In this document: piece after piece, positions 12,091-50,391 of the stretch | How positions within the stretch are numbered: the stretch's first letter is position 1 | Layout: each line of letters starts with the position of its first letter | Assembly: GCA_947500585.1 (NCBI GenBank) | Contig: CANMSN010000001.1 | Span: 62,001 to 126,000 of the forward strand | DNA: 64,000 nucleotides | Direction: 5' to 3' | Origin: an uncultured Flavobacteriaceae bacterium | GTDB lineage: Bacteria > Bacteroidota > Bacteroidia > Flavobacteriales > Flavobacteriaceae | Notes under the pieces: model-generated | What the model was told of the DNA's origin: nothing | Seen by the model: the letters and a program-made list of their open reading frames with translations, nothing else | Databases searched by the model: none | Made by a program: the position numbers and the translations under genes

Positions 12091-13023
12091 TTATTTTACA
12101 TCCATCAATTCAACATCAAAAACAAGAGTTGCATCTGGTGGAATTACACCTCCAGCACCTGCGCTACCGTAACCTAAATGACTAGGAATAACAAATCGTG
12201 CCTTGTCGCCTACTTTTAATAAACTGATACCTTCATCCCACCCTGAAATAACTTGACCAACACCTAACGGGAAATCGATAGGTTGGTTACGCTTGTATGA
12301 CGAATCGAAAACAGTGCCGTCAGACAATTGTCCTTTATAATGCACAGAAACTGTTTTACCTTTTTCTGCTTTATTGCCTTTACCTTCTTGAATGATTTGA
12401 TAACGTAAACCACTTTCAGTTTTATTAAAACCAGTTGCCAATTTATCTAATTCTGCTTCTGCAGCAGCTTTAGCTTCTGCTAATCTTTTTTCTCTAGAAC
12501 CTTCAAAAGTTCTAAATGCCTCAACGGCATTATAAGCTTCTGCTTCTGCTCCAACTCTAACAATCTCTAAAGTTTCAATTTTATCGCCTTGAGCAATGGC
12601 ATCTACTACATCTTGTCCGTTAACAACTTTACCAAAAACAGTATGCTTATTATCTAACCAAGCCGTTTCAATATGTGTTATAAAAAACTGACTTCCGTTT
12701 GTACCAGGACCAGCATTAGCCATAGATAAAACTCCAGGACCATCGTGCTTTAAGTCAGGATGAAACTCATCATCAAACTTATAACCAGGGTTTCCAGAAC
12801 CTGAGCCTTGTGGGCAGCCACCTTGTATCATAAAATCTGGAATTACTCTATGAAACTTTAAACCATCATAATATGGCGTTCCTTGGGGTTTAACTTTATT
12901 TTCTAAATTTCCTTCAGCTAAAGCAACAAAGTTACCTACAGTTCCTGGTGTTTTTTGATATTCTAAAGCAACAAGAATTCCTCCTTTAGTTGTGTTAAAT
13001 TTTGCGTATAATCCGTCTTGCAT
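12091..13023 (-). CDS. Cyclophilin-FKBP fusion peptidyl-prolyl isomerase
   Basis: A 310-residue protein joining two unrelated prolyl isomerase folds. The start is placed at ATG 13023 ([14 protein letters not shown]); the longer frame to 13062 adds 13 unlikely residues. Residues ~5-155 are cyclophilin: [15 protein letters not shown] (catalytic Arg), [24 protein letters not shown]. Residues ~155-190 form a charged Ala-rich helix. Residues ~195-310 are [68 protein letters not shown]. No signal peptide, so it is probably a cytoplasmic folding helper. Such fusions occur in Bacteroidota. Confidence 0.92.
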
Positions 13024-13330
13024 TGTTCTAATTTTATTTGAAGCTGCAAATATATGAAACATACATAACTAAAACTTAATACTCAAAGAAAATCATAACA
13101 TGTATGCTACATGTGCCTTTTTACAAAAAAATACAATCACATAAAATGATTTATGATTATAGTTTTACAAAAATCAACTGTTTTGTAAAATATAAGTTTA
13201 AATAAAAAATTATCTTTACGGGATAACGACAACAAAAAACTTACCATATCCTGATATATTTAAGGGATATGATGAGTAATAAAAATTACTGTATAACGAG
13301 TTGTGCTTCATTAACACCAACCGCTAACCA

Positions 13331-14077
13331 ATGATAAAATTCTTTAGAAAAATTCGCCAAAACTTGCTTATGGAAAATAAAACTGGAAAGTATTTCAAAT
13401 ATGCAATTGGCGAAATCATACTTGTAGTTATCGGAATTTTAATTGCTTTATGGCTAAATAATCTAAATCAACAAAGAATTGAATTACGGGATAGTTCAAA
13501 CTTAAAGCTAGCTCTTAAAGAAGAATTACTTGAAAATAAAAAATCTTTCAAAAGTTATAAAAGCTACGTAGAACAATGTCACGGAAAAATCATAACAGTT
13601 TTAAATGTATCTGCAGGTGATAACGATGAGATTACTATAGATACATTAAAAAAGTTAGTTATTGAGATGATGCCAGCTGGAGCAATTGACATCAATGAAT
13701 CAAGGCTTAATGCCGCAAAAACTTCTGGACAATTTAGACTATTAACTTCTGAAGAAAGTAATGCATTGACTAGTTATGAAACTATCTTAGATGGATTTAA
13801 AGAAGCTCGTAAATTGAATAATATTTTTAATAATGAGAATAGGCCTTTATTTTTATATTTCTCTTTAATCGACGACTATAATAAAAGACTATATCCAAAT
13901 GTAGTTTTAACAAAGCATCCGGATTATAATTTATCTGATGAAGATTTTCTGTCTTTTTTAAAAAAGAGAGAGACTTATTTACAGCTTAGTTCCATATTGA
14001 CAAGTGTCCTTGTAGATATTCAATGGTTAGGTGGATTAGATAAAAATATTGATGAAACAATCGAGGCATTAAATTGA
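13331..14077 (+). CDS. DUF6090 family membrane-anchored protein
   Basis: A 248-residue protein with the recognisable DUF6090 N-terminus: MIKFFRKIRQNLL, then a single membrane helix (residues ~26-44, AIGEIILVVIGILIALWLNN). The remainder is predicted helical and lies outside the membrane; orientation is uncertain. The family is common in marine flavobacteria and often multi-copy; function is unknown. The gene stands alone. Its flanks carry GTATAACGAGTTGTGC (13291-13306) upstream and GCACAACATGCGTATATAAC (14101-14120) downstream, an imperfect inverted pair of the kind seen around isolated flavobacterial genes. A 7-bp inverted repeat (CATATCC 13245, GGATATG 13265) also lies in the leader. Confidence 0.8.
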   Translation: MIKFFRKIRQNLLMENKTGKYFKYAIGEIILVVIGILIALWLNNLNQQRIELRDSSNLKLALKEELLENKKSFKSYKSYVEQCHGKIITVLNVSAGDNDEITIDTLKKLVIEMMPAGAIDINESRLNAAKTSGQFRLLTSEESNALTSYETILDGFKEARKLNNIFNNENRPLFLYFSLIDDYNKRLYPNVVLTKHPDYNLSDEDFLSFLKKRETYLQLSSILTSVLVDIQWLGGLDKNIDETIEALN

Positions 14078-25813: not shown

Positions 25814-27205
25814 TTATTGTCCTCTGAAGAAAATTACGGTACTCAACGTTTTGATAAGAATGTTAATATCTAGAAAAAAGCTTCTATGTTTAATATAATA
25901 TAAGTCGTATTGAAGCTTTATTAAACTATCATCTACTGAAGAAGCATATTTAGTTTTTACTTGTGCCCAACCTGTTAAACCTGGTTTAACAATATGTCTG
26001 GTTTCGTAAAAAGGAATTAATTGCGATAATTCTCTAACAAAATGTGGTCGTTCGGGTCTTGGACCAATTAAACTCATATCACCTCTTAAAATATTAATAA
26101 ATTGAGGAATTTCATCTACTCTTGCGTGTCGCAAAAACTTACCAAAAGGCGTAATTCGTACATCATTCTTTTTGGCCCAAGCAATACCATCTTTTTCGGC
26201 ATTTTTGACCATAGTTCTATATTTAATAATTTTAAATAGATTTCCATTTTTTCCAATCCGTTCTTGCGTATAAAAAAGAGGTCCACGATTTCCAATAAAA
26301 TTACCTATTAAGACAAACGGAAGGCTTACAACTCCTCCTAAAATACCAATAATAGAAATAAGAATATCAAAAAGCCGATTGAAGAATAGATACATCTTAT
26401 TTTGATTGCTTCTACTAAAAGGGAAATACTTATAAAAATCTTTACCTACAAACTGAACTGGTACACGATGTGTCATGTCCTCATACACTTGAGTATATTC
26501 CTTAATAGGAACTCCGCCCTCTAAAAGCGTAATTAAATCTGTATAAATTTCTGTGGTAATAGATTCAGAATCATAACTAGCAATTACAATTTCCGAGATG
26601 TCTTCATCTTTAATTATTTGATAAATCTGCTTAGGACTATATTCTACTATTCCCTTAAATTTCACCTTTTTATCTTTTCGGGCTTCACAATTTATAAAAC
26701 CAACAATTTTATAGTTTGGATCTGCATCATTAAAAGCTTGAACTATAGCCTCAATATTCGAAGTTTCTCCAACTATTAAACCTTTTTTATAGAATCTAGG
26801 AGATACAATAAAAGTAATATAGATAAAACGCCATAAAAATAGAGCTGATAGAATAGAAAAGTAAAAACCTAATATTTGGAGTCTATTTTCTGGTAAAACG
26901 GGCGTTAAAAATGGGGTTAAAAAATAAAATAGCACAGTAATAGATACCGTAAGAACAATGTTTACATATGTTTTTTCAATATTACTAGATTTTTGTAAAT
27001 CGTAGATTTCAAAAATGGTTCCGAAAATAGAAACATATAAAATAAGCACAAAAATCCAACTCCAATTTTCTTTAGTAATTGTAAAATAATCAAAAGCAAA
27101 AGTATTACCAACAAAATAAAGCACCAGAATTACTGAGAAAATATCGAATAAACGCAAAAGTACTTTTCGTTCTGAAATATTAAAATGAATACTGTTTTTG
27201 GACAT
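25814..27205 (-). CDS. Polyprenyl-phosphate sugar-1-phosphate transferase (WbaP/WcaJ type)
   Basis: Loads the first sugar phosphate onto undecaprenyl phosphate to start each repeat unit. The start is set at ATG 27205 (MSKNSIHFNISERK), giving 463 residues; the longer frame to 27316 overlaps the preceding gene. Four to five membrane helices (~15-150) and a central Rossmann-like region come first. The C-terminal catalytic domain (~275-463) has the reentrant hydrophobic segment, then PLFYTQERIGKNGNLFKIIK, KYRTMVKNAE, LRHARVDEIPQFINIL, DMSLIGPRPERP and KPGLTGWAQV. It is the last gene of the polysaccharide operon, the reverse of the usual first place. Confidence 0.95.
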   Translation of the reverse strand: MSKNSIHFNISERKVLLRLFDIFSVILVLYFVGNTFAFDYFTITKENWSWIFVLILYVSIFGTIFEIYDLQKSSNIEKTYVNIVLTVSITVLFYFLTPFLTPVLPENRLQILGFYFSILSALFLWRFIYITFIVSPRFYKKGLIVGETSNIEAIVQAFNDADPNYKIVGFINCEARKDKKVKFKGIVEYSPKQIYQIIKDEDISEIVIASYDSESITTEIYTDLITLLEGGVPIKEYTQVYEDMTHRVPVQFVGKDFYKYFPFSRSNQNKMYLFFNRLFDILISIIGILGGVVSLPFVLIGNFIGNRGPLFYTQERIGKNGNLFKIIKYRTMVKNAEKDGIAWAKKNDVRITPFGKFLRHARVDEIPQFINILRGDMSLIGPRPERPHFVRELSQLIPFYETRHIVKPGLTGWAQVKTKYASSVDDSLIKLQYDLYYIKHRSFFLDINILIKTLSTVIFFRGQ

Positions 27206-27260
27206 TTTTAAGATTTTTTTCTCCTCGGTAAAGATAACAAGTAAATTTAGATAACAAATG

Positions 27261-28271
27261 TTAAGAGAGCAGAGATATCCATTTTTCCTTAACAATCTCC
27301 CAGTCAAACTGTTCAACTTTAAGTCTAGCGTTTTTACTTAAATTTATAGCTAATGTTTTATCCTTTATTAAGTTTTTAATAGCCGTATTAAAGGCATTTA
27401 CATCATTTGGTTCAACTAATATACCGTCTAAGCCATTATCAATTAAAAAAGGCATTCCTCCTACATTAGTAGAAATAATTGGTAAACCCAAAGCCATAGC
27501 TTCAATAACACTAACTGGCGTATTATCAACATTTGTTGTGTTGATAAATATATTAAAATGTCTTGCCTTATCATGCCATTGTGGCTTAGTTAATCTACCT
27601 GTAAATTCAACATCTAAATTTAGTTTTTTTGCATACATTTTTGTTTCCTCTAAGCTTCCATCATTATCAGGACCAATCATACAAAGCTTAGCTTCAATAT
27701 CATTTTCTTTTAAAGATTTTAGAATATCAATGGCTAACGATGGATTGTAAACTCTGGAAAAAGAACGCACCCATAATAAGTTTACAGCATCTAATGGTCT
27801 TTTCGTAAAAGTATATTTTTTTAGCTCTATAGAATTTGGTATACAAACTACATTTGTATAACCAGATGCTTCAAAATTTGATTTTGTATATAATGAAGGG
27901 GCTACATTTATATGAGCATTGTTAAAAATTGATTTAGATAACCTAGGATTATGCTTTAAACGGTTTGGCAAACCTCCTCCCCTTAAGATTGGAATATATT
28001 TTAAATTTAAAATTCTGCATAACTGACTTACTGCATAAGCGAAGCAAAAATTTAGAGTGCTATATGTATCAATAAGCACATAATCTACTTTTCCTCTAGA
28101 TAACAAAACTGTTAAGAGCATATCAAATAATCTCATCAGTTTATTAGGTTTATTAGATACCAACTTTACGTGAAATCCTTCCATCTTCAAAAAAACACCT
28201 AAAGTCTCTACTGAAGTGGGTGTTTTATTCTTTCCCGATAACTGGTTTCCTATATAAATTATATTTTTCAT
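27261..28271 (-). CDS. Glycosyltransferase family 4 protein
   Basis: A 336-residue GT-B transferase. Start chosen at ATG 28271 (MKNIIYIGNQLSG); an alternative ATG is three codons upstream. The GT4 features are the acceptor-side GGGLPNRL loop, VAPSLYTKSNFEASGYTNV, IPNSIELKKY, and the donor-site stretch ending PVSVIEAMALGLPIISTNVGG (E-x7-E pattern) with GILVEPND. It overlaps the polymerase-like gene upstream by 47 bp, an unusually long overlap. Donor and acceptor sugars are unknown. Confidence 0.9.
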   Translation of the reverse strand: MKNIIYIGNQLSGKNKTPTSVETLGVFLKMEGFHVKLVSNKPNKLMRLFDMLLTVLLSRGKVDYVLIDTYSTLNFCFAYAVSQLCRILNLKYIPILRGGGLPNRLKHNPRLSKSIFNNAHINVAPSLYTKSNFEASGYTNVVCIPNSIELKKYTFTKRPLDAVNLLWVRSFSRVYNPSLAIDILKSLKENDIEAKLCMIGPDNDGSLEETKMYAKKLNLDVEFTGRLTKPQWHDKARHFNIFINTTNVDNTPVSVIEAMALGLPIISTNVGGMPFLIDNGLDGILVEPNDVNAFNTAIKNLIKDKTLAINLSKNARLKVEQFDWEIVKEKWISLLS

Positions 28272-29586
28272 TGGTAACATTTAATAAAGCTAGAGCATAA
28301 ATAAAACCTGGAGCCGCAATTCGCATAGATGAGTGATTAATCGTCGCAAACCAAAAGCACAAAAAGGCGTAAAAGTAATAATTTCTTTTATTTTGAGATC
28401 TATAAATTAGAGGTGCAAAAATAAGAATCCCTAATATGATAATACCCATCATACCATGTTCGCCTAAAATTCGACTCACTTCGTTGTGAGATGTCAAACC
28501 TACTTCTCCCTCTCTAATACGCTCTTCTTTAGCACCACTTGCTCCAATTCCTAAGAAAGGGCTTTTTATAAATCCTTCAATTTCCTCCATAAATAAAGTC
28601 AATCGACCTGTAGAAACATCTGCCTTTTCTTCACCCAAAGCGTTTTCATTAGCATACCGTTTATCTATAAGTCCCATCGTTTGATTAGAACTTATCACCC
28701 AAGTAATGGTTATGACAGCCATGAAAAGCACTAACTGCTTTAGTAATTTCCCTCTTATTACCCATGAGGACTGAAAAAAGTAAGACACTAAAAACACAGC
28801 TATACATAATAATCCTGTTATAACACCTCCTCTACTAAAAGTAACAACTGCTCTAAAAGACATAGCAACAAAAATTGTAATATTCAAAACTTTAATTCCA
28901 AGTTTTGAAGACCTAACAAATAATCTAGCCCCAATAAGAAACATACCTAAACCCAATACTGTAGCCACTTGATTTGGTCCAAAACCACCAGAGGTAGCAG
29001 GATTAGAACCGGTTCCTGTTAATACTTCTTTAATACTAGGCGTATATAGAAATAAGTAGGTTGTTAAGGATACTAAAGGTAATATTACATATAAGAGGAC
29101 ATCATCTAATTGCTTACGACTTATTTTTTTTTCATAGCAAAATAAAGATGCCATACCTAAACAAATAGGACCACTTAATACAAATAAAACATTCTTTCTG
29201 AAATTGGCTTCGTAACTTATAAGCATGGAAGCTACAAAAATTGAAGGCACTAAACAGATTAAAAATATGAAGTAAGGATAGGCTCTACTTGAAATACCTT
29301 TATAAAACATCCCCATCAGCGAGAATAGAATGACAATATATTTTGATGCCTCGTAAGCTAAAGAACTTTTAGTCATTCTGAATAAAATCTCTGCTCCGAC
29401 AAAATAGGCACAACCAATTAACACATATAAACTCTTTTTAGAGTTGGAAGCTTTTATAATTTTTTGTAAAAAATAGAATAGTGCAATTATAAAATATAGT
29501 TTTCCAAGATTCTCATTAAAATAAACGAGTCCTCCAAAAATAATATGAAGTCCAATTAAAGCGCTATAGCCTAACTTATTTTTCAA
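28225..29586 (-). CDS. O-antigen ligase/polymerase-like membrane protein (Wzy-like)
   Basis: A 453-residue polytopic protein with about 12 hydrophobic segments. A large periplasmic loop (~300-385) contains the Wzy_C/WaaL pattern: ADVSTGRLTLFMEEIEGF, SPFLGIGASGAKEERI and GLTSHNEVSRILGEHGMMG (Arg and His as in O-antigen ligases). Such enzymes either polymerise lipid-linked repeat units or ligate polymer to an acceptor. The presence of a polymerase next to an ABC exporter makes its exact role open. It overlaps the following GT4 gene. Confidence 0.88.
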   Translation of the reverse strand: MKNKLGYSALIGLHIIFGGLVYFNENLGKLYFIIALFYFLQKIIKASNSKKSLYVLIGCAYFVGAEILFRMTKSSLAYEASKYIVILFSLMGMFYKGISSRAYPYFIFLICLVPSIFVASMLISYEANFRKNVLFVLSGPICLGMASLFCYEKKISRKQLDDVLLYVILPLVSLTTYLFLYTPSIKEVLTGTGSNPATSGGFGPNQVATVLGLGMFLIGARLFVRSSKLGIKVLNITIFVAMSFRAVVTFSRGGVITGLLCIAVFLVSYFFQSSWVIRGKLLKQLVLFMAVITITWVISSNQTMGLIDKRYANENALGEEKADVSTGRLTLFMEEIEGFIKSPFLGIGASGAKEERIREGEVGLTSHNEVSRILGEHGMMGIIILGILIFAPLIYRSQNKRNYYFYAFLCFWFATINHSSMRIAAPGFIYALALLNVTNEKYNLYRKPVIGKE

Positions 29587-37044: not shown

Positions 37045-37848
37045 TTATTCATAGTACTTAGCTCTTACTGCCTTATAGAATTCCAATTCAGGCTTCAATT
37101 TAGCTAATGCATATTCCTTTTCTGTTTCGCTTATTTGAAATTCTACGTTTTTAAAACTACGCTCATTTCTAATATTCAAACTTAAATTTAATGTCTCACT
37201 TAAGTCTTTTACAGCACCATCAAAATTATCTAGAAAATAAACTTTATCTACTTTTTTAAGATTTTTAAGTCCTTCATCAATTTGAAGTGATTGACTAAAC
37301 ATAAATAATTGATTTAATAAATATTTGTCACTAAGATTATCAATAAAGTCCTTAAATGATTTATTCAATAAATTGTGTTGCTTTTTTAATACAAAAAAAG
37401 ACGGGTCTAATTTAAAACCTAAATCGTCGTCTACTTGTGTTACCCAACAATAGTATTTATAAAGTGATACTAATCTTTTATAAGGGTCTCTAAACATTGT
37501 AAAGGTAAAGGTATTCGGTTTGAAATTTAATTCCCATTGTGCAAAATGAGCACTGGCAAATAAATAATTTCCTTTTTCTATTAATTCCTTACTATATCGA
37601 ACAAAAGAATATTTTTTCCCTAAAATAATGGGTTCTCTTCTTACAGTATCTAAAGAGAAATTCTCTAATCCCCAAAAGGCACTATTAATAGAAGTTCCAG
37701 CAGATTTACGGATATGCAAATGATATACTCTATCAATGTCTTTTGGTAAATGTTTGGCATTGTTATAAAAATTTACTGCTAAGAAGATTTTAAATTTTCT
37801 ATAGTATTTTTTATATGTCCAACTATTCTTAATTTTTTTTAAGATCAT
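37045..37848 (-). CDS. Sulfotransferase (PAPS-dependent, family 2 type)
   Basis: A 267-residue enzyme expected to move sulfate from PAPS to a sugar hydroxyl. Two PAPS-binding motifs are visible: the 5'-phosphosulfate loop HIRKSAGTSI (residues 45-54) and the 3'-phosphate motif FTMFRDPYKRLVSLYKYY (~116-133, Arg-Asp-Pro with Arg/Ser). This is the pattern of Golgi-type carbohydrate sulfotransferases and bacterial relatives. CysC and CysQ in the same operon would supply PAPS and remove PAP, which supports a real sulfation step. It overlaps the upstream GT4 gene by 4 bp. Confidence 0.88.
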   Translation of the reverse strand: MILKKIKNSWTYKKYYRKFKIFLAVNFYNNAKHLPKDIDRVYHLHIRKSAGTSINSAFWGLENFSLDTVRREPIILGKKYSFVRYSKELIEKGNYLFASAHFAQWELNFKPNTFTFTMFRDPYKRLVSLYKYYCWVTQVDDDLGFKLDPSFFVLKKQHNLLNKSFKDFIDNLSDKYLLNQLFMFSQSLQIDEGLKNLKKVDKVYFLDNFDGAVKDLSETLNLSLNIRNERSFKNVEFQISETEKEYALAKLKPELEFYKAVRAKYYE

Positions 37849-38936
37849 TTATAAACCATTAATTTATATAAACTTTCTCGTTGCTTAATAAATGAATTTA
37901 AACTAAAATTTTGATAGACCATATCTATCAATTCCAAACTGTTAAATTCATTATTATTAACAAAAATATTTATTTTCTTAGCCAAATCATTACTGTCAGA
38001 TGGTTCAAATAAAAACTGCGGATATTTATACAGAACATCTTTAATACCAGATATATTAGAACCAATAACTGGTATTCCCATAGCCATAGCTTCTAAAGGC
38101 GCTATGGGCATACCTTCTTTCCGCCCTTCATTTTTTGTAGGTATTACAAAAACATTAGACAAAGCAAGGTATGGTTTTACATCCATTTTTTTTCCTAAAA
38201 ACAAAAATTCATCAGTATGATATTTTATTTTTAGTGCCTCTGCATAATCACTTTCGTCATTTCCTATTATTAATACTTTTATGCGCTCATTATTAATAAT
38301 TCTAACAGCTTCTAATAATATTTCAATCCCCTTTACAGGTACCATATTAACAACTGTAACAACAATAAAATCATCTTCAATTAACCCTAAACTGCCTGCT
38401 AACTCTAAATCTTTATCCTGTGGTTTATATTCCGTGGTATCAACACCCAGAGGAAGCTGAATCACTTTATCTGGTATCCATTTAAAAAAATCATTCACCA
38501 TATCATTATTAATAGCTATGATTTTAGAGCTCAATTTTGATCGCCATACCCAAGATTTATTACCCCATCCCATGGCTTTTTTAGTATATAAGAAAGGGAT
38601 TCCTGCTAGTTTTGCAGCTAACGGTTCAGAAAAATCAGAACTCCAGTGCCATGAATGTATTACATCAAATTTATGTTTTTTAAAAAAACACCTTATTTTC
38701 CAAACTCTAAAAAAAAATGTGCTTAACGGTTTATATTCAGTAGTAAACTGGAAAACATGAATAGGAATTCTTAATTCTTGTACCTTTTTAAAAAATGCTC
38801 CTCTTGTATGAAAAACACATATTTCTGGCGCAAAAATAGTTTTATCCAAACCTTTTACTAAATCATAAACTACTTTTCCACTTCCAGCAGTATCAAAGTT
38901 TGGAATTGTATATAATATTTTAATTTTCTGAGACAT
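37845..38936 (-). CDS. Glycosyltransferase family 4 protein
   Basis: A 363-residue GT-B enzyme: YTIPNFDTAGSGKVVYDLVK at the start, HSWHWSSDFSEPLAAKLAGI, AMGWGNKSWVWR, LPLGVDTTEYKP, VVTVVNMVPVKGIEILLEAV (donor domain), GNDESDYAEA, and KEGMPIAPLEAMAMGIPVIG (E-x7-E). Its end overlaps the sulfotransferase start by 4 bp (ATGA-type coupling), so this sugar may be the one that is sulfated. Confidence 0.92.
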   Translation of the reverse strand: MSQKIKILYTIPNFDTAGSGKVVYDLVKGLDKTIFAPEICVFHTRGAFFKKVQELRIPIHVFQFTTEYKPLSTFFFRVWKIRCFFKKHKFDVIHSWHWSSDFSEPLAAKLAGIPFLYTKKAMGWGNKSWVWRSKLSSKIIAINNDMVNDFFKWIPDKVIQLPLGVDTTEYKPQDKDLELAGSLGLIEDDFIVVTVVNMVPVKGIEILLEAVRIINNERIKVLIIGNDESDYAEALKIKYHTDEFLFLGKKMDVKPYLALSNVFVIPTKNEGRKEGMPIAPLEAMAMGIPVIGSNISGIKDVLYKYPQFLFEPSDSNDLAKKINIFVNNNEFNSLELIDMVYQNFSLNSFIKQRESLYKLMVYK

Positions 38937-38940
38937 ACAA

Positions 38941-39555
38941 TTATGATTCTATAGATCTAATTACTCTAGCGGGATTGCCTGCTACAACACTATTTGAAGG
39001 CACAGATTTAACCACAACTGATCCAGCCCCTATGATCACGTTATTACCAATTACTATATCTCCAATAATACATACGTTTGCTCCTACCGTTACATTGTTT
39101 CCAATAACTGGAAGCAAATTATTATCATTAAACTTATTACCTATGGTTAACCCGTTTCTGAATTCAAAATTTTCTCCTATGCGCTTCGCATTTATTACGG
39201 TTGAAAAAGGATGAAAACATACCAATCCACCTGATATTTTAGTACTTCCAAAAATCTTACACTCATAACCTGTTTTAAATAATTTATTTAAATATGCTCT
39301 CTTTTTTTTTGTTCTCCAAAAGAAAATAAAGGCAAACGCAGGATAATAAATCATGAGGTGTTCAAATTTCTTTTTTGTACTCAAATTCATGGCATGACAG
39401 CCTCTTACTTCATAAGTGCGATTTATATCGGAAATAATGATTTCATTAGATTTTACATATTTTTTGAAAAAAAAATACAGCACTAATTTTTTCAAACTAT
39501 GTCTTAATAAAAATATGGGGCTCATTATACTCATGCTATAACGGGAGAAATACAT
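38941..39555 (-). CDS. Serine-acetyltransferase-like sugar acyltransferase
   Basis: A 204-residue protein with a helical N-terminus (~1-85) and a left-handed beta-helix (~95-195): FHPFSTVINAKRIGENFEF, VIGNNVTVGANVCIIGDIVI, NNVIIGAGSVVVKSVPSNSV, AGNPARVI. This layout resembles CysE but the locus points to a sugar O-acetyltransferase. Acetyl donor and target are not provable from sequence. Confidence 0.85.
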   Translation of the reverse strand: MYFSRYSMSIMSPIFLLRHSLKKLVLYFFFKKYVKSNEIIISDINRTYEVRGCHAMNLSTKKKFEHLMIYYPAFAFIFFWRTKKKRAYLNKLFKTGYECKIFGSTKISGGLVCFHPFSTVINAKRIGENFEFRNGLTIGNKFNDNNLLPVIGNNVTVGANVCIIGDIVIGNNVIIGAGSVVVKSVPSNSVVAGNPARVIRSIES

Positions 39556-39581
39556 CTATGTTTACAAAAATAATATACTTT

Positions 39582-40343
39582 TTATTTAGCTATAAATGAT
39601 GGATTTAGTAACGTTTCCTTATTGTATTTTAATTCTAGTCCGTCCACGGTTTTTATATTATATCCTAATACTTTTAATATACTATGTGACGCTGCTGTGT
39701 CCCACTCCATTGTAGGCACAAATCTAGGATATATATTTGCTAATCCTTCAGCGATTAGCATAAATTTCAATGAACTTCCCATTGAAATTAGCTTAACATT
39801 ACCTGTAACAGCATTAATATACTCTTGCGTTTCTTTATTTGAATGCGATTTAGAAGCCACAACAACAGTTTCTATCTCATCAAATTTCAATACTTTTTTA
39901 TCTAGCTTTTTTTTCACTCCACCATCTAGAATAAATGGGTTAATCTTATCGCCTCCAACATACATTTTATGTAATACTGGAACATATACAATTCCAAATA
40001 CAGGTATATCATCTTTCATTAAGGCAATATTTATAGTAAACTCGCCTGTTTTGAGTATAAATTCTTTTGTGCCATCAATAGGGTCAATACACCAATACAG
40101 ATTCCATTTTTTTCTCACCTCATAAGGTGTGTGCCTACCTTCTTCTGATAAAATAGGTAAACCATATTTTATTAATCCATCTGTTAAAATTTGATGAGAA
40201 CGTGTATCTGCATTTGTAAGCGGTGATAAATCAGCTTTTTCTTCAGTCTTTAAAGTATCTGTATTATTATATATCTCTAAAACGGCCTGACCTGCTTTTT
40301 CCGTTAATAGAACTAAATCATCTAGTATACCTGCTATCTCCAT
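39582..40343 (-). CDS. cysQ: 3'(2'),5'-bisphosphate nucleotidase CysQ
   Basis: Hydrolyses PAP (3'-phosphoadenosine 5'-phosphate), the by-product of PAPS-dependent sulfation, to AMP. The 253-residue protein has the Mg-binding motifs of the lithium-sensitive phosphatases: SEEG (66-69), DPIDGTKEF (87-95) and the C-terminal EWDTAASHSIL (~217-227). It sits 2 bp after cysC and upstream of the sulfotransferase in the same operon, which points to a dedicated sulfation cassette. Confidence 0.94.
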   Translation of the reverse strand: MEIAGILDDLVLLTEKAGQAVLEIYNNTDTLKTEEKADLSPLTNADTRSHQILTDGLIKYGLPILSEEGRHTPYEVRKKWNLYWCIDPIDGTKEFILKTGEFTINIALMKDDIPVFGIVYVPVLHKMYVGGDKINPFILDGGVKKKLDKKVLKFDEIETVVVASKSHSNKETQEYINAVTGNVKLISMGSSLKFMLIAEGLANIYPRFVPTMEWDTAASHSILKVLGYNIKTVDGLELKYNKETLLNPSFIAK

Positions 40344-40345
40344 AA

Positions 40346-40948
40346 CTATAACTTTATTTTGTTACTGAGTTTGAACATTATAGTTTCAATAATATCAGGT
40401 ATATTTTTATTTTCAGTATCTATGATCATATTAGGTTGCGTCGGTTTTTCATAAGGTGCATCAATACCAGTAAAATTTTTAATCTCACCCTTTCTTACCT
40501 TTTTGTAAAGTCCCTTAACATCTCTACGTTCACATTCTTCAATAGATGTTGACACAAAAATTTCAAAGTAATTTTCACTTCCTACAATATTTTTAATATT
40601 TTCCCTGTCTTTTATATACGGTGCCACAAAAGAAGCTATTGTAATTATTCCAGTATCAATAAATAATTTAGAAACTTCCCCAACACGTCTTAAGTTTTCA
40701 GACCTACTCTCTGGTGCGAAATTTAAATCTTTATTAAGACCATTGCGTAAATTATCACCATCAAGAACAACAGTTCTAATACCCTGTTCATAAAAGCATA
40801 TATCAAGAGCATCAGCTATTGTTGATTTTCCAGAACCCGAAAACCCCGTCAAAAGAATCAAAAAAGAATTATGATTATTCATTTTTGTTCTTTCTGTTTT
40901 AGAAATTGATAACGATTGTGGAATTATATTTTTTTTCATCTGTGACAC
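40346..40948 (-). CDS. cysC: Adenylyl-sulfate kinase CysC
   Basis: Phosphorylates APS to PAPS, the sulfate donor. The 200 residues carry the P-loop GFSGSGKST (35-43), the APS-binding DGDNLRNGLNKDLNF (63-77), the SENLRRVGEV region and GIDAPYEKP near ~153-161. The N-terminal NIIPQSLSISKTER is normal for CysC, so the first ATG is kept. ATP sulfurylase (CysDN or Sat), needed to make APS, is not in the window. Confidence 0.95.
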   Translation of the reverse strand: MSQMKKNIIPQSLSISKTERTKMNNHNSFLILLTGFSGSGKSTIADALDICFYEQGIRTVVLDGDNLRNGLNKDLNFAPESRSENLRRVGEVSKLFIDTGIITIASFVAPYIKDRENIKNIVGSENYFEIFVSTSIEECERRDVKGLYKKVRKGEIKNFTGIDAPYEKPTQPNMIIDTENKNIPDIIETIMFKLSNKIKL

Positions 40949-43556: not shown

Positions 43557-44417
43557 TCATTTTTTAAAAAATAATATTCTATTTTTTATACGATTAGCAA
43601 AAGATGGTTTTTTTTTAATAATCATAAGCTCATTATTAATACTAACATCATGCGAAGCAACTATATTATAAATTTTCTCTGGGGTTATTGAACCTGAAAA
43701 TTCACCTTTTATTACTTTCAAATTGTTCTTTAGTATTTCTTTGGTTTTAGCTTTTAAATCATCAATATCAGGATAAGATTTATTATCAGAATAATAACCA
43801 TCTATAAACCCTTTAATGAAAATTCTAAAGTCATAATCTAACTTTCCGCGTTCTAGCCAGTATACAAAAAGGCTTGACCACTTAAAATGTTTTATACCAT
43901 GAAAAAAAGCTTTTCTATATATATCCTCGTAGAATTGAAAAAAATCATGTAAAGCAAATAGTCTACTTTCCTCTACAAAATTAAAGCCGTCCTTTTTCAT
44001 TTTACTGTATAAGAAGGATTCTGGTCTTACCTCATTTTTAATCTCCTTATAATATTTTTTTGCATTTTTTAAATTTTCAGTTAAATACAAATGTGGTCCT
44101 CCCGACTTTGTACCTCCTCTAAATTTATCAATTATATAACCTTGATAAACATATAAATTAGTAGAATTTATACTAGCTCGGTTTACCATTTGTGTTATTG
44201 CATTTGGTACTATAATTAAATCAGCATCTATAGCCAATGTCCATTTTTTACCTTGTTTAAGCCCAATATCAAACGTTTTAATTACGGCTTCACTAAATGG
44301 TTTTTCCTCAATAATAAAAACGTTCTCTTCGTTAACTTCATTTAAAACTAAATTTTTACAAGCAGATATTGTTCTTTCATTTGCTGATCTAATTACTACA
44401 GTAATATCATTTATCAT
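43557..44417 (-). CDS. Putative GT-A-like glycosyltransferase
   Basis: A 286-residue protein not firmly assigned. The N-terminal ~120 residues look like a GT-A nucleotide-sugar fold: ITVVIRSANERTISACKNLV, VFIIEEKPFSEAVIKTFDIG, and WTLAIDADLIIVPNAI, which offers an Asp-x-Asp metal motif. The C-terminal half is Lys/Phe rich without known motifs. The place between GT2 and GT4 genes supports a glycosyltransferase or related transferase, but the family should be regarded as unknown. Confidence 0.6.
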   Translation of the reverse strand: MINDITVVIRSANERTISACKNLVLNEVNEENVFIIEEKPFSEAVIKTFDIGLKQGKKWTLAIDADLIIVPNAITQMVNRASINSTNLYVYQGYIIDKFRGGTKSGGPHLYLTENLKNAKKYYKEIKNEVRPESFLYSKMKKDGFNFVEESRLFALHDFFQFYEDIYRKAFFHGIKHFKWSSLFVYWLERGKLDYDFRIFIKGFIDGYYSDNKSYPDIDDLKAKTKEILKNNLKVIKGEFSGSITPEKIYNIVASHDVSINNELMIIKKKPSFANRIKNRILFFKK

Positions 44418-45446: not shown

Positions 45447-46430
45447 TTAAAATTCAAAATTATCAATTAGATTGTATGAATACCTTTTAAGTTTATAACT
45501 TCTCTTATTACTTAGCAAAGATATTCTAATTATTAGGCACAATTTAATCTTATAATAAAAAGGTAAAACATTTTTTAAGCCCTTTAACATAAACAAAATG
45601 TTTTCTTTATCTCTATTTTTTAATCCCAAAAAAATTAATTTAATTATGGCGTTGTAATAATATTTAAACACTTCAAAATCTTTAAGTGCGTGTGCTCTTT
45701 TAATGTTTGCTACATAGTTAAATGACAATGATGCAGCATATGGTTTAAAATATACCTCACTTTTTTTTGATATAGAATTATCATGCTGCCTGTATAAAAA
45801 CAAGGACTTATTCAAAATGGTATACTTATTAGCAGGTAGTTTAAAAAATAACCGTGAAAAAAATTCGGATTCTTGACCTTTTTTTATTTTAGTTGAAAAT
45901 AAGGATTTATCTTTTAAAAACGATTTTCTGAATAATACAGATGGCGTTAAGACTTCTAGCTGCCACATTGCATAATCTTTGTATAGGAATGTATTTACCT
46001 TTAAATCAATATTTCTTATAAGCTCAAGATTATAATTGGTGTGACTACCAGAACAGATAACCAAATCTATATTTTTGGTAAACGCTGAAACCTTAGTTTT
46101 CAAATAATCAGGTAACATTACATCATCACTGTCAAACCACTGAATATAATCTCCTTTACTCTGCTCAAACCCATAGTTACGAGCACCATTGCCACCAGAC
46201 GAATAGCTATCTGGACGTTTATGGTATTGAAAGCGATTATCATTTTTTACATATTCGTCAATTATACCCTTAGTATTATCAGTAGACCCATCATCCACAA
46301 TAATACATTCCCAATTCGTGTAGGTTTGTGCTAAAACAGAGTCTAAAGTCTCTTTTAATAAATGTGAGCGATTAAAAGTTGGGATTATAATCGAAATTAA
46401 ACTAGACTTTTTCAATTCAATAAATCCCAT
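45447..46430 (-). CDS. Glycosyltransferase family 2 protein
   Basis: A 327-residue GT-A enzyme with a very clear active-site series: ISIIIPTFNRSHLLKETLDS (~12-31), CIIVDDGSTDNTKGIIDEYV, GNGARNYGFEQSKGDYIQWF and DSDDVM (metal site, ~105). Starts 5 bp after the triple-fusion gene, so the two are surely co-transcribed. Confidence 0.93.
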   Translation of the reverse strand: MGFIELKKSSLISIIIPTFNRSHLLKETLDSVLAQTYTNWECIIVDDGSTDNTKGIIDEYVKNDNRFQYHKRPDSYSSGGNGARNYGFEQSKGDYIQWFDSDDVMLPDYLKTKVSAFTKNIDLVICSGSHTNYNLELIRNIDLKVNTFLYKDYAMWQLEVLTPSVLFRKSFLKDKSLFSTKIKKGQESEFFSRLFFKLPANKYTILNKSLFLYRQHDNSISKKSEVYFKPYAASLSFNYVANIKRAHALKDFEVFKYYYNAIIKLIFLGLKNRDKENILFMLKGLKNVLPFYYKIKLCLIIRISLLSNKRSYKLKRYSYNLIDNFEF

Positions 46431-46435: not shown

Positions 46436-48268
46436 CTATTTATGTGCCACAAATAATGGTCGCTTATTATTAGCTATATTCAATTCATCATCTGACAAAC
46501 CAAGATATTCGACTTTTTTAAATCCATTATTAACTAAATTTTCTTTAATATAATCAACATTAGTATTGCTATTACCTTCAAAATATAAGGTTTTTAAGCA
46601 GATAGCATTAAGTTTCTTAAAAAACGCATCTTTATCTTTTAAATGACCTAGTACTGCTAAACAGAATACAATATCATAAGGAGTATTAAACTGTGATTTA
46701 AAATAAGTACTTTCTACATCTACTCTTTTAAAAGAAAGCTCTTTATCTTTAAAATGTAATGATTTAATGATATTAGAAATTTGGACCTTATCATTATCAT
46801 ACTCGATTCCTAATGCAGATGAAGGCTCATACTCCATTAAACCTGATAACAATGCTCCAATATTACTTCCAATATCTAAAATATTTTTATTATGAATATC
46901 CTTTTTAGTTATATTAAAGTTCTCAAGCCGTTTTTTTATGTTTCTTTGACCAATTTTTTCATCTATTTGAAGATGTTTTAAATTAAACGTTGCATATATA
47001 TATCTATTTACCAACGTATGTCTAGCGTCTTGGTCTTGTTTTCTAGTAAAAAAAGATCCAGAAATTTTATATAATTTTTCTTTAAGAAATGAGTCAAATA
47101 ATTCTTTAAAATGATTTTCATCTCTAATATTAAATATCTTTTTTAAAGAAAAATCACTATGTCCTAACACACACATATTCTTAGTTAAAAAGGGCGATTC
47201 CAAGAACTTACCAGTAACATCATAAGACTCAAAAAAGTCAATATTTGAATTTAACTTTTGGCTAGTTTCAAAGTCTATAATCTTAATTCCATCAGGTGTA
47301 TAAAATATATTTTTTGCATGAAAATCACAATGCGCTATATTTTTACTATATATCTCAATCAAACAAAATATAATCTCACCAAAAATATCTAATCTTTCAT
47401 TTGGAGCAACTGTATCAATATATTGATCTAATCTATATTTATTATCAATAAATTCAAAAATAAGGTAATCACTTGCTATACTTAATATTTTAGGTAACCA
47501 ACTGTATCCTTCAAAAAGGCTATACATATCTAATTCATTTTTATATGAATCCACACCCTCTTTTGAATTCATATAGCTCTTTTTTACAGCTTTCTTGTTT
47601 TCAAACTCTATGATTTCAACAATAGTTCTGTCACTGATAGTTTTATCTCCAAAAGTCTTAAATTGAACATCTTTCTTTATGTAAAGTAATCCATTTTCTT
47701 TCCCATAACGGCCTTTTTCATCTACCTCCTTATACAACTCCTTATCTCTATTTTTTAATATCTTAAATTTTTCAGAACCTACAATTGATAATGGAGGTAC
47801 ATTACCCGAAACCACAGTGCCCATACCAATTATTACACCATCTCCTATAATAGTTCCTGGTGTAATGCAGACATTCATTCCTATCCATACATTTTTACCT
47901 ATGACAACTTCTTTTTTTATGAATTCATTATTGTAAGGTAAAATATCAGAGTTATAATTATGATTAATAGTATAAAGCACAAGATTTCTACTTATGTGAG
48001 TATTATCACCAACTGAAAGGCCTCCTTCAGCTTTTATAAAGGCATTATTCCCTATATGAACATTTTCTCCTAATGTTATTTTTTCAGGACTTGAAATTGA
48101 AAGTTCGGTTCCCCAAAAAAAAGAATCCTTCCCTTTTTTTACTTTATTAAAAATAATATTTGAATTTAGTTTTTCTTTTCTTTTTATTTCTGATATTATG
48201 TGATTAACTAGTTTATCTAGCAAGGGCTTTAATTTGCTTTTTATTTTATTTTTTAATTTTTTCTTCAT
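46436..48268 (-). CDS. Three-domain fusion: acyltransferase, kinase, methyltransferase
   Basis: A single 610-residue frame with three enzyme types. (1) Residues ~50-165: left-handed beta-helix acyltransferase with catalytic His in YTINHNYNS (His103) and the coils VVIGKNVWIGMNVCITPGTI and IIGMGTVV. (2) Residues ~200-400: eukaryotic-like/lipopolysaccharide-type kinase with Lys in AVKKSY (~229), Glu in KNELDMY (245), catalytic loop HCDFHAKN (313-320) and metal motif DFE (332-334). (3) Residues ~445-610: class I SAM methyltransferase with motif I ILDIGSNIGA (463-472) and acidic GIEYD (~489). The gene lies 1 bp after the Wzt-like ATPase. Known enzymes that cap ABC-exported polymers (WbdD) join a methyltransferase and a kinase in the opposite order; this may be an analogue with an added acyltransferase. 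Function is inferred. Confidence 0.85.
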   Translation of the reverse strand: MKKKLKNKIKSKLKPLLDKLVNHIISEIKRKEKLNSNIIFNKVKKGKDSFFWGTELSISSPEKITLGENVHIGNNAFIKAEGGLSVGDNTHISRNLVLYTINHNYNSDILPYNNEFIKKEVVIGKNVWIGMNVCITPGTIIGDGVIIGMGTVVSGNVPPLSIVGSEKFKILKNRDKELYKEVDEKGRYGKENGLLYIKKDVQFKTFGDKTISDRTIVEIIEFENKKAVKKSYMNSKEGVDSYKNELDMYSLFEGYSWLPKILSIASDYLIFEFIDNKYRLDQYIDTVAPNERLDIFGEIIFCLIEIYSKNIAHCDFHAKNIFYTPDGIKIIDFETSQKLNSNIDFFESYDVTGKFLESPFLTKNMCVLGHSDFSLKKIFNIRDENHFKELFDSFLKEKLYKISGSFFTRKQDQDARHTLVNRYIYATFNLKHLQIDEKIGQRNIKKRLENFNITKKDIHNKNILDIGSNIGALLSGLMEYEPSSALGIEYDNDKVQISNIIKSLHFKDKELSFKRVDVESTYFKSQFNTPYDIVFCLAVLGHLKDKDAFFKKLNAICLKTLYFEGNSNTNVDYIKENLVNNGFKKVEYLGLSDDELNIANNKRPLFVAHK

Positions 48269-48269: not shown

Positions 48270-49541
48270 CTATCTCCACTTTTGATTAACTAAAATTATT
48301 TGATGGCTAGCCGCTGGTAATTTTCCTGAATTATAAAAATCTCCAGACTCTACAATAATATTTCCTGCCTCCTTTATGCTATCATATACTTCAGCAAAAC
48401 TAGTTATATTAATATTATAATTATAAATCCCTGCAGTGAACGGTATTTTATTTAATTCACAATAAAAGAATGATACTCCATGTGAAATATCATAATATTT
48501 ATTAATTGAATCGCTCTTAAATGCGGTAAGCATTGAATTATCCAAATTAAAAACACCTATACCTATTGAGCATTTTTTGTATACTTCTTTATCATAGTTT
48601 TCAACCTCAATTTTAACTTTAATTTCTTGACCTGAAACTAGAGATTTACAATCTTTATTATTTGAGTTTATAAAAGAAACATTTTTAATTTGTAATCCTT
48701 TCTTTTTATTTTCTCTTTTCACCTTAAAAGTTGATAATTCTCCTTCTCCAATTGTAGTATACTCTTCAACTATGCTAGCAGTATCACCAATTCTTTTTAC
48801 ATACCCATTCTGTAATAGAATACATTTACTTGTTAATGATTTAATTGTAGCCATATTGTGACTTACAAACAAAACGGTTCTACCATCGCCTTTACTAATT
48901 TCCTGCATCTTACCAATAGCTTTTTTTTGAAATTCAGCATCACCAACAGCTAGAACTTCGTCAACTATTAAAATATCAGGTTCTAAAAAAGCGGCTACTG
49001 CAAAAGCTAAACGCACTTTCATACCAGAGGAATACCGCTTTACAGGGGTATCTATATACCGTTGGCATCCTGAAAAATCTATAATCTCCTCTAATTTGGC
49101 ATTAATCTCAGCTTTGGTCATGCCTAAAATAGCACCATTTAAAAAAATATTTTCCTTCCCGGTCATTTCTGGATGAAACCCGGTACCAACTTCTAGTAAA
49201 GACGCAATACGCCCTTTCGTTTTTATTTCACCTGTAGTGGGTCCTGTAACTTTTGATAAGATTTTAAGAAGTGTGGATTTACCTGCGCCATTTTTTCCTA
49301 TAATACCTAACACCTCACCACGCTCTACTTCAAAACTAATATCTTTGATCGCCCAGGCATACTCGGAGTTTCCAGTAGTCGATCTATCGTTAGTTTCACC
49401 TATTTTTAAATATGGGTCTTCTTTACCTCTAATTTTATGCCACCACCTATTCATGTCATGACTAATAGTACCTGTTCCAATAGTGCCTAAGCGGTATTGC
49501 TTAGAAATATTTTCTACTTTTAAAATAATGTCTTTCTGCAT
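48270..49541 (-). CDS. wzt: Polysaccharide ABC transporter ATPase with C-terminal domain (Wzt-like)
   Basis: The ATPase half of a polysaccharide exporter, 423 residues from ATG 49541; the longer TTG start at 49556 would overlap wzm. The nucleotide-binding domain (~1-245) has Walker A GKNGAGKST (~82-90), signature KRYSSGMKVRLAFAVA, Walker B DILIVDEVLAVGD and H-loop FVSHNMATI. The C-terminal ~165 residues are a separate beta-rich domain (from ~265, LQIKNVSFINSNN, VKIEVENYDKEVY, FYCELNKIPFTAGIYNYNIN). In E. coli O8/O9a, Wzt uses such a domain to recognise the capped end of the chain. The gene lies 1 bp from wzm and 1 bp from the triple-fusion gene. Confidence 0.93.
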   Translation of the reverse strand: MQKDIILKVENISKQYRLGTIGTGTISHDMNRWWHKIRGKEDPYLKIGETNDRSTTGNSEYAWAIKDISFEVERGEVLGIIGKNGAGKSTLLKILSKVTGPTTGEIKTKGRIASLLEVGTGFHPEMTGKENIFLNGAILGMTKAEINAKLEEIIDFSGCQRYIDTPVKRYSSGMKVRLAFAVAAFLEPDILIVDEVLAVGDAEFQKKAIGKMQEISKGDGRTVLFVSHNMATIKSLTSKCILLQNGYVKRIGDTASIVEEYTTIGEGELSTFKVKRENKKKGLQIKNVSFINSNNKDCKSLVSGQEIKVKIEVENYDKEVYKKCSIGIGVFNLDNSMLTAFKSDSINKYYDISHGVSFFYCELNKIPFTAGIYNYNINITSFAEVYDSIKEAGNIIVESGDFYNSGKLPAASHQIILVNQKWR

Positions 49542-49542
49542 G

Positions 49543-50391
49543 TTAAATCGTATCAATAAAACTTTTCTCAGTTTTATTAAAAATTAAAATCCCTAGTAAA
49601 AACACAACTACTGTAAATACTAAAGTGTAAACAACACCAAATACAGATGTTGTACCCTCTCCTAATAGTAAATAACGAGAAAACTCTATAACATAAGCCA
49701 TTGGGTTATAATCTACTGCCCAAGCAAAACCATTGTCTTTAAACAAACTATAAGGTAGTGTTACTAAAGAAATATACATGAGCAATTGCACACCAAAAGT
49801 TAGTAGAAAAGATAAATCTCTATATTTTGTAACCATTGATGAGATAATCATCCCTGTACCTAAGCCTAATAGCCCCATGACCAAAATAATAACAGGAAAA
49901 TAAATAGCATATATATTAGGTCTTACTAGACTACCTTGATATACAAAATACAGATAAAATACTACAAATAGACCAAGTTGAATGCCAAATTTTATCAAAT
50001 TTGAAAGTACTACAGACAAGGGCATAATTACTCTTGGAAAATACACTTTTCCAAAAATGGCTTGATTTTTTTTAAACGTATCAGCTGTTCCTGTTAAACA
50101 CTCTTTAAAATAATTCCAAGAAACCACTCCTGCTAGGTTAAATAAAAATGGCGGAATACCACCCGTATCAATATTAGCAATAGTATTAAATACCAGAGTA
50201 AAAATAACAGTAGTAAACAAAGGTTGTATAACAAACCAGAGCGGTCCTAAAACGGTTTGCTTATAAACTGTTATTACATCACGTTTTACAAACAGCAATA
50301 ATAAATCACGGTACTGCCAAACCTCTTTAAAGTTGAAATCTATTAATTTCTTTTTTGAAGAAATTGTATATAACCAGCTTTCTTCTTTCAT
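49543..50391 (-). CDS. wzm: Polysaccharide ABC transporter permease (Wzm-like)
   Basis: The membrane half of the exporter, with 282 residues and six predicted helices of the ABC-2 type. The N-terminal amphipathic part reads WLYTISSKKKLIDFN and EVWQYRDLLLLFVKRD, followed by KQTVLGPLWFVIQPLFTTVI, all typical. ATG overlaps the epimerase stop by 4 bp (ATGA). The first codons of this gene are echoed in a remnant at 51444-51644. Confidence 0.94.
   Translation of the reverse strand: MKEESWLYTISSKKKLIDFNFKEVWQYRDLLLLFVKRDVITVYKQTVLGPLWFVIQPLFTTVIFTLVFNTIANIDTGGIPPFLFNLAGVVSWNYFKECLTGTADTFKKNQAIFGKVYFPRVIMPLSVVLSNLIKFGIQLGLFVVFYLYFVYQGSLVRPNIYAIYFPVIILVMGLLGLGTGMIISSMVTKYRDLSFLLTFGVQLLMYISLVTLPYSLFKDNGFAWAVDYNPMAYVIEFSRYLLLGEGTTSVFGVVYTLVFTVVVFLLGILIFNKTEKSFIDTI

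Follow-up and report, generated by a model that had tools for sequence, protein, structure and literature searches.

RESULTS

A three-domain fusion gene adjoins an ABC polysaccharide exporter

The window, as we call the whole 64,000-nucleotide stretch analysed here, carries on its minus strand a single open frame with an ATG start (46436-48268) that encodes a 610-aa protein. We refer to it as AKM, for acyltransferase-kinase-methyltransferase fusion. It is separated by 1 bp from the preceding Wzt-like reading frame, since the latter ends at position 48270. An earlier note on this DNA had described an uninterrupted frame of 610 codons lying 1 bp after a Wzt-like ATPase, and the coordinates bear this out. 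The features on which the analysis rests are as follows:

45447-46430, minus strand: GT2 glycosyltransferase immediately after AKM (domain match; 31% identity over 213 aa to the GT2 of L044, a related locus described below)
46436-48268, minus strand: AKM, the acyltransferase-kinase-methyltransferase fusion, 610 aa (open reading frame, Pfam, full-length relative in L044)
46439-46948, minus strand: class I SAM methyltransferase part of AKM, aa 441-610 (Methyltransf_23, structural model, fold matches, alignment, profile match to the WbdD methyltransferase)
46949-47698, minus strand: kinase part of AKM, aa 191-440, with a confident core at about aa 201-350 (Pkinase/RIO1, structural model, fold matches, alignment)
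47699-48268, minus strand: hexapeptide-repeat acyltransferase part of AKM with His103, after a basic N-terminal stretch, aa 1-190 (Hexapep)
48270-49556, minus strand: Wzt-like ATPase with C-terminal domain (ABC_tran, Wzt_C; 50% identity over 431 aa to the Wzt of L044)
48345-48716, minus strand: Wzt_C domain of this ATPase, aa 281-404, the proposed cap reader (Pfam; co-variation with the next gene)
49543-50391, minus strand: Wzm-like ABC-2 membrane subunit (ABC2_membrane, 4.9e-14)

Ahead of AKM, the minus-strand run comprises a Poly_export/SLBB protein, a Wzc-like protein, an epimerase-like ORF (called by eye and from the annotation of a short match), Wzm and Wzt. After AKM come glycosyltransferases, an APS kinase, an inositol-monophosphatase-family protein and a sulfotransferase, together with two further hexapeptide acyltransferases, a Wzy_C protein and a Bac_transf sugar transferase. 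The exporter is recognised as a Wzm accompanied by a Wzt that bears a C-terminal Wzt_C domain, and both are present. The Wzt frame is listed from a TTG codon and its real start possibly lies slightly downstream. That this ATPase has an extra C-terminal domain had been proposed from the sequence; the Wzt_C model matches it at E 8.9e-7, with a score of 29.4 bits that is slightly under the Pfam cut-off of 30.4. Wzt_C was matched at E 0.01 or better in 32/32 Wzt proteins scanned.

All three parts of AKM have Pfam matches (Hexapep, 1.3e-10; Pkinase, 2.5e-8; RIO1, 6e-6; Methyltransf_23, 2.2e-8), and the motifs are arranged along the chain as His103 in YTINH, HCDFHAKN at 313-320 and ILDIGSNIGA at 463-472. 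The relative with the same architecture, found in a Saprospiraceae MAG (L044), is a 611-aa protein that is 42% identical to AKM over 571 aa (E 1e-147), and because of it the fusion is unlikely to be a chance event. Its gene likewise lies directly after Wzm and Wzt and ahead of a GT2. The Wzm proteins of the two loci are just 32% identical. Pfam matches, motifs and this relative agree with the earlier reading of three activities in one chain. The Pkinase match (aa 267-356) precedes that of the methyltransferase (aa 450-557), which upholds the further claim that the order is opposite to that of WbdD.

The acyltransferase, kinase and methyltransferase parts

The N-terminal part of AKM combines hexapeptide repeats with a catalytic His, as hexapeptide O-acetyltransferases do. 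It shares the repeats and the active-site His region with the WbbJ/LacA type and, unlike those enzymes, carries two additional fused domains. The WbbJ model matches it at 8.7e-20, but the 71 bits scored fall well below the equivalog cut-off (243), and its PDB matches are SACOL2570- and LacA-type acetyltransferases; structure prediction modelled it poorly. His103 can also be read from the sequences of L044, L048 and L050. L048 is a solo acyltransferase of 183 aa in a polysaccharide region of a Sulfitobacter plasmid; it shares 45% identity with the acyltransferase of L044 and stops at the position where the linker of the fusions begins. In L050 (genome G196), the gene after Wzt encodes the same acyltransferase type (45% over 194 aa to that of AKM) fused to a sulfotransferase, with no kinase-methyltransferase; set against AKM, this is domain swapping at one genomic position. 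The basic stretch of AKM, aa 2-45, is helical in the model at low confidence and forms the longest predicted helix of the protein. A membrane-binding N-terminal helix was considered and set aside: the hydrophobic moment is unexceptional (reached by 144/1000 shuffles for the window, 279/1000 for L044 and 399/1000 for L048) and stands out in L050 only, where 18/1000 shuffles reach the value.

For the middle part, the Pkinase score of 34.1 bits exceeds the Pfam cut-off of 31.7. Lys230, His313, Asp315, Asn320, Asp332 and Glu334, the last two within an IIDFE motif that can be read from the sequence, are invariant across an alignment of four kinase relatives; the alpha-C glutamate of the AKM kinase is absent in L044. 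When the kinase was predicted alone from the four relatives, a protein-kinase core emerged at model residues 17-166 (block pLDDT 67-93), flanked by residues 1-16 and 167-266 with pLDDT below 50; the C-lobe was poorly modelled. The best 50 Foldseek matches of this model are all kinases by title, one being called merely a 'phosphotransferase', and the VIA matches listed are kinases by title except for one pre-40S particle. The best VIA match has a Z score of 16.2 (rmsd 2.9, 152 residues), and archaeal Rio2 matches with Z 15.1 (rmsd 4.7, 166 residues). Of the best 50 entries from a viral fold library, most bear kinase names and a few are unnamed or named otherwise. The earlier note would have abandoned its reading had structure prediction pointed away from a kinase; the prediction instead returned a kinase fold, and the ATP and Mg motifs are in the sequence. 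A Kdo-kinase model matched two relatives with scores under its cut-off. We take the DFE form and the HxDxHxxN loop to resemble those of small-molecule or glycan kinases.

The methyltransferase part has ILDIGSNIGA as motif I; SAM motif residues are invariant in the alignment, and Gln441-Arg442-Asn443 is kept unchanged in three relatives. A profile alignment pairs this part with the WbdD methyltransferase (prob 92, E 6.7e-7), and its gap-free extension places Gln35-Arg36 of WbdD over Gln441-Arg442, a register of two residues only. The phosphate pocket of WbdD includes Gln35-Arg36, according to the portion of PMC3482155 available. The pocket residues Arg31, Cys33 and Asn34 differ in AKM, and Phe194, Asp195 and His197 fall outside the comparison. 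Sequence by itself lends no support to WbdD as the nearest methyltransferase, generic methyltransferases matching equally well or better; WbdD is also absent from the matches of the methyltransferase-only profile at E 0.1. It does not appear among the best 50 Foldseek or VIA matches of either the full model or the kinase model, a statement confined to those matches. For the full AKM model, Foldseek places the methylphosphate capping enzyme MePCE first (E 7.9e-9), whereas by VIA Z score (16.8) MePCE ranks 23rd, tied with its neighbours; as support for methylphosphate capping, this model-based match is suggestive only.

Relatives of AKM are rare

Plain protein similarity matched 1/299 family genomes, namely the source genome alone; the genus comprised no genome but this one. 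A kinase-plus-methyltransferase profile at 1e-15 retrieved only the genome itself from 395 genomes of the class and 395 of the order, the family, class and order sets overlapping. No AKM relative appeared in a first plain scan of genome contigs, in phage records (0) or in viral contigs. As the scan of genome contigs needs peptide patterns, the count of relatives is a lower bound. Plasmids gave no match at 1e-5 with the kinase-methyltransferase query and two weak matches, a Piscinibacter kinase (4e-4) and one methyltransferase found with the Shouchella query. Searching with the kinase only, at 1e-3, matched 35/395 phylum genomes, source genome included; the best besides the genome itself was G511 (6e-29), then G430 (L037, 1e-8), with weaker ones after. 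Six other proteins whose sequences were inspected resemble common Ser/Thr or ABC1-type kinases to the eye and were set aside.

A profile built from the window and G511 kinases found three loci in genome contigs, G511 included. The G511 protein (L045, 1945 aa) comprises TPR and GT41, an FkbM methyltransferase and a C-terminal kinase, among neighbouring ORFs read as flagellar. In Shouchella tritolerans (L046), a 785-aa protein joins GT2, TPR, kinase and methyltransferase, and is surrounded by collagen-like repeat proteins and GT2-like proteins. The kinase-methyltransferase fusion recurs in three genomes, with one architecture common to the window and L044 and a second in L046. Judging from L044, L046 and G511, the kinase is a portable module that sits on glycan-building enzymes with or without the methyltransferase.

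These loci bear on two points raised beforehand. Co-occurrence of the same architecture with a Wzt C-terminal domain, suggested as a check, is seen in L044, where the fusion follows a Wzt with a matching domain. Homologues in loci without an ABC exporter had been named as a sign against the proposal: the kinase-methyltransferase pair of Shouchella is of this kind, in that no exporter was seen by eye among the ORFs of its 20.5 kb locus, but the pair is fused to a GT2 there, so a glycan-modifying role still fits. Among the literature matches listed (titles and abstract openings of open-licence papers), nothing described the AKM architecture, and the same was true of the matches for exosporium glycan kinases.

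The gene after Wzt in other Bacteroidota

A profile of the Wzt C-terminal domains of the window and L044, searched against 199 family and 198 class genomes, matched 21 and 11 of them, respectively, with the source genome in both; 30 others were examined. These 30 loci are a non-random sample, because they were picked by similarity to the window and L044 domains. With genes taken as ORFs of 90 aa or more and classes assigned by us, the gene in the slot after Wzt encodes a methyltransferase in 14 loci, a sulfotransferase in eight (one of them, in L050, fused to the AKM-type acyltransferase), a pyruvyltransferase in two, a kinase in one (L059) and an acyltransferase in one; the remainder are two glycosyltransferases, one MptE-like protein and one Wzm. 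By our reading, non-glycosyl modifying enzymes thus occupy the slot in 26/30 loci, or in 23/30 if Pfam has to match with an E-value no higher than 0.01 and in 18/30 above the Pfam curated cut-off. The calls without a Pfam match are the methyltransferases of L063 (by eye), L072 and L073 (BLAST to L070/L071), and those under the curated cut-off are L051, L054, L059, L070 and L071; the glycosyltransferase of L060 was called by eye. The slot gene of L061 joins a P-loop-like motif (by eye, without a Pfam match) to a methyltransferase that the AKM methyltransferase profile matches at 2.8e-13. The AKM kinase profile had no match at 1e-3 among all ORFs of the 30 loci.

Further along, at slot+2 (30 genes; 25 of 46 matched families listed), there are at least 10 GT2, at least three FkbM, at least three class I methyltransferases, at least two sulfotransferases and at least one hexapeptide protein. 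At slot+3 (26 usable genes, of which 25 were scanned, the 92-aa ORF of L053 being excluded; 25 of 37 families listed), we count at least 11 GT2, at least five GT1, at least two sulfotransferases, at least one FkbM and at least one class I methyltransferase. Among the families listed, both positions hold more glycosyltransferases and fewer modifying enzymes than the slot itself. Judged from these assignments, the gene after Wzt in Bacteroidota loci is a variable slot of putative glycan-modifying enzymes. Literature matches listed for a capping slot in Bacteroidota (open-licence papers; titles and abstract openings) held nothing on the subject.

The Wzt C-terminal domain and its neighbouring gene

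Does the C-terminal domain of Wzt follow the gene in the slot? For this comparison, the ATPase part was taken as residues 70-270 of the window Wzt and the C-terminal domain as the remainder of the C-terminal side. Labels were shuffled 2000 times within groups, with L044 as its own family and with finer classes than above (a BLAST-homologous methyltransferase group of seven, a Methyltransf_24 group of three, eight sulfotransferases that are mostly non-homologous to each other by BLAST, two pyruvyltransferases, two AKM, the rest single). Across families, the 20 pairs that share a slot class have a C-terminal identity of 0.301 and the 242 pairs that differ in class one of 0.198, a difference reached in 0/2000 permutations; for the ATPase part the values are 0.679 versus 0.654 (48/2000). 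Leaving out the window, L044 and two near-duplicates gave 0/2000 for the C-terminal domain and 113/2000 for the ATPase. Without the near-duplicates L073 and L078 alone, the C-terminal domain remained at 0/2000 in both tests, and the ATPase stood at 72/2000 over all pairs and 136/2000 across families. Over all pairs, the ATPase follows the slot class too (20/2000), as relatedness would give; after regression on the ATPase, the C-terminal domain is still at 0/2000, or 1/2000 without near-duplicates.

The C-terminal domains of the window and L044 are each other's closest match (mutual rank 1 of 31), while their ATPases rank 23rd and 19th. This match is not circular, as L044 was found via the kinase and not via Wzt; the other 30 loci were chosen by the C-terminal-domain profile. 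At C-terminal identity of 0.35 or more (13 pairs, two near-duplicates dropped), the slot genes are homologous in 8/13 pairs, compared with 3/241 pairs below 0.20; for slot+2 the corresponding figures are 4/13, window-L044 among them, and 28/241. Five of the 13 closest pairs lack homologous slot genes (L058/L060 at 0.53, L056/L060, L056/L058, L062/L067 and L065/L068), so the rule is not strict. On these sequence comparisons, variation in the C-terminal domain of Wzt tends to go together with variation in the adjacent gene. Joint transfer of neighbouring DNA could be the source of this co-variation.

DISCUSSION

Comparison with known chain terminators

In known systems a cap stops elongation and certifies the chain for export, and the C-terminal domain of Wzt reads it; the caps named in the consulted part of PMC9445017 are few, namely methyl, (methyl)phosphate and Kdo. 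The same part presents cap recognition by the Wzt C-terminal domain of A. aeolicus as established and mentions caps that are O-methylated sugars. WbdD acts on the chain end first by phosphorylation and then by methylation, as stated in the accessible portion of PMC3482155. As far as the available accounts go, WbdD of E. coli O9a and K. pneumoniae O3 resembles AKM in uniting a kinase with a class I methyltransferase on a single polypeptide, and in belonging to an ABC-exporter locus where Wzt bears a C-terminal domain. The catalytic motifs of the AKM kinase align with those of the WbdD kinase (profile prob 91). Both the kinase and the methyltransferase align with WbdD by virtue of belonging to large superfamilies. 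The differences are considerable: WbdD has an N-terminal methyltransferase followed by the kinase, whereas AKM has the reversed order plus an N-terminal acyltransferase; WbdD extends into a C-terminal coiled coil that acts as a molecular ruler, whereas the AKM chain ends with the methyltransferase and shows no coiled coil on a predictor-free reading; AKM has DFE instead of DFG, and sequence similarity is low. Given its domain order and coiled-coil status, we do not claim AKM as a member of the WbdD family.

A methylphosphate terminus is also made in K. pneumoniae O7, by an enzyme pair unlike WbdD in sequence and predicted structure (PMC11231755, in the part available). ORF6-N of that system, like AKM, offers a kinase and a methyltransferase, which there jointly make the terminus, and to the extent that this source describes it, it is a precedent for a second build of the methylphosphate-making activity. 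In the same account ORF6-N starts with the methyltransferase and has an AmiN-like kinase, a CBM-like domain, a coiled coil and GT modules, and no acyltransferase is described for it (PMC11231755); AKM carries one, and differs from ORF6-type terminators in both order and domains. The Wzt C-terminal domains of E. coli O9a, R. terrigena and A. aeolicus occupy the same position on Wzt as here, according to the excerpted PMC9445017. The window domain has diverged too far to match solved domains by sequence: at E 1, its profile retrieved no Wzt domain structure from the PDB.

A model for AKM

We read AKM in terms of capping logic because a kinase-methyltransferase fusion follows a Wzt with a cap-reader-type domain, as in known systems. 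By analogy, AKM is most likely a terminator that resembles WbdD in how it works but differs from it in build. We consider it probable that AKM caps chain ends and that Wzt reads the cap; that the cap contains methylphosphate is a more tentative proposition, which we put at a little under an even chance. We infer substrate, product, reaction order, chain-length control and cap recognition from this analogy. AKM would modify the non-reducing end of the polysaccharide in the cytoplasm, and Wzm-Wzt would then export the chain. The kinase domain would phosphorylate a hydroxyl on the last sugar, and the methyltransferase would transfer a methyl group to this phosphate or to a different hydroxyl of the end sugar. 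Hexapeptide acyltransferases are usually trimers, and WbdD is a trimer held together by a helical bundle. The acyltransferase of AKM may therefore O-acetylate the end sugar, serve as a trimer platform that gathers three kinase-methyltransferase arms in the manner of this bundle, or both. The C-terminal domain of Wzt would finally bind the cap and admit the chain for export. The earlier note had AKM ending or priming the polymer. Ending it, with the cap read by Wzt, is partly supported as an interpretation by the L044 locus with the same fusion, the variable slot and the co-variation of the C-terminal domain; priming gained no support.

How do other explanations fare? AKM might decorate the sugars of repeat units or side branches internally, its place beside Wzt reflecting the mosaic nature of such clusters. 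The two further hexapeptide acyltransferases, the sulfotransferase and the APS kinase of the cluster are in keeping with this, as are AKM-type kinases fused to glycosyltransferase-type proteins elsewhere, but the slot position and the cross-family co-variation of the Wzt C-terminal domain, against the weak one of the ATPase, are not, and we regard internal decoration as unlikely. The co-variation could itself be mere linkage if the 3' end of Wzt and the next gene recombine as a block. Homologous slot+2 genes in 4/13 of the closest C-terminal pairs, window-L044 included, agree with such hitch-hiking; yet the ATPase part of the very same Wzt gene follows only weakly, slot+2 follows less than slot+1 (4/13 versus 8/13, and 28/241 versus 3/241 at identities below 0.20), and Wzm has diverged between the window and L044, all of which makes it less probable still.

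AKM could also cap the chain end without methylphosphate, by acting on different hydroxyls or by placing the methyl on a sugar oxygen as in A. aeolicus, and this we deem somewhat unlikely. The AKM methyltransferase is generic by sequence, many slot methyltransferases come without a kinase, and sugar O-methyl caps do exist (PMC9445017, in part). The persistence of the kinase-methyltransferase fusion across three genomes and two architectures speaks for methylphosphate instead, as do the L061 slot gene, in which the by-eye P-loop-like motif is joined to a related methyltransferase, and the Gln-Arg register with the phosphate pocket of WbdD. A degenerate fusion, in which the acyltransferase works and the kinase-methyltransferase is a pseudo-enzyme scaffold, is by far the least credible. 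It would accommodate the missing alpha-C glutamate of L044 and the occurrence of the same acyltransferase type alone (L048) or with a sulfotransferase (L050), but it sits poorly with six invariant catalytic residues in four kinases, with the invariant SAM motif residues and with the kinase-methyltransferase pair that stands without an acyltransferase in L046.

What would capping by AKM imply beyond this locus? In Bacteroidota the slot after Wzt is conceivably an exchangeable capping slot, which we advance with some doubt. It would be filled by methyl-, sulfo-, pyruvyl-, phospho- or acyltransferases or their fusions, and the Wzt C-terminal domain would recognise the product, so that export is locked by a password. 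The password set by AKM, an acetylated methylphosphate end, would be the most elaborate of all, and its acyltransferase would be a shared carrier for either a kinase-methyltransferase or a sulfotransferase. If true, the kinase-methyltransferase of AKM would add a third way of building an enzyme that makes methylphosphate to the two known from WbdD and O7 ORF6. If the slot does hold a capping enzyme in Bacteroidota, the sequences of many genomes would allow caps to be predicted, caps bearing sulfate or pyruvate would become testable, and Wzt C-terminal domains would be available to glycan engineering as readers with known partners.

Other genes of the polysaccharide cluster

The cluster that holds the acyltransferase–kinase–methyltransferase fusion (AKM) also carries a sulfation set, and a sugar transferase and a Wzy_C-type protein lie in one cluster with the ABC exporter:

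37045–40948, sulfation set: APS kinase, inositol-monophosphatase-family protein and sulfotransferase
25814–29586, Bac_transf sugar transferase and Wzy_C-type protein
43557–44417, 286-aa protein flanked by glycosyltransferases

By eye, the inositol-monophosphatase-family protein is CysQ-like. The L044 locus, from a Saprospiraceae MAG with the same AKM fusion, likewise has ORFs that read as sulfotransferases. The 286-aa protein lacks a significant Pfam match, its best hit being GT2 with E 0.054, and at E 1 nothing in NCBIfam matches it.

Genes following Wzt in other Bacteroidota loci

In L061 (G025:C1, 1892–3100), the gene following Wzt joins an N-terminal P-loop-like motif, GPSSAGKST, in a part without a Pfam match, to a relative of the AKM methyltransferase, and is perhaps a second kinase–methyltransferase cap enzyme, made with a different kinase. 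The gene directly after Wzt in L050 (G196:C5, 1889–3250) fuses an acyltransferase of the AKM type to a sulfotransferase, a possible sulfate-cap counterpart of AKM. The corresponding gene in L059 (G171:C1, 4100–5989, minus strand) encodes a 630-aa protein whose protein kinase match scores 30.4 bits, under the cut-off of 31.7, with a region N-terminal to it that by eye resembles a nucleotidyltransferase. Two loci from kinase searches, L037 (G430) and L036 (G511), resemble this arrangement in appearance. In L051, the methyltransferase gene that follows Wzt is present twice in tandem (1942–2640 and 4390–5088), as is the GT-like gene behind it, and the copies share their first 60 residues.

Kinases are also fused to glycan enzymes in other loci. 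A GT2–TPR–kinase–methyltransferase protein of Shouchella tritolerans (L046, 8783–11137) is surrounded by more GT2-like proteins and by proteins with collagen-like repeats, and the locus perhaps has a role in spore-surface glycosylation. L036 encodes a 1945-aa protein (7501–13335) ordered TPR/GT41, FkbM methyltransferase, kinase, which might modify flagellar glycans; nearby ORFs resemble FlgL and FliD by eye.
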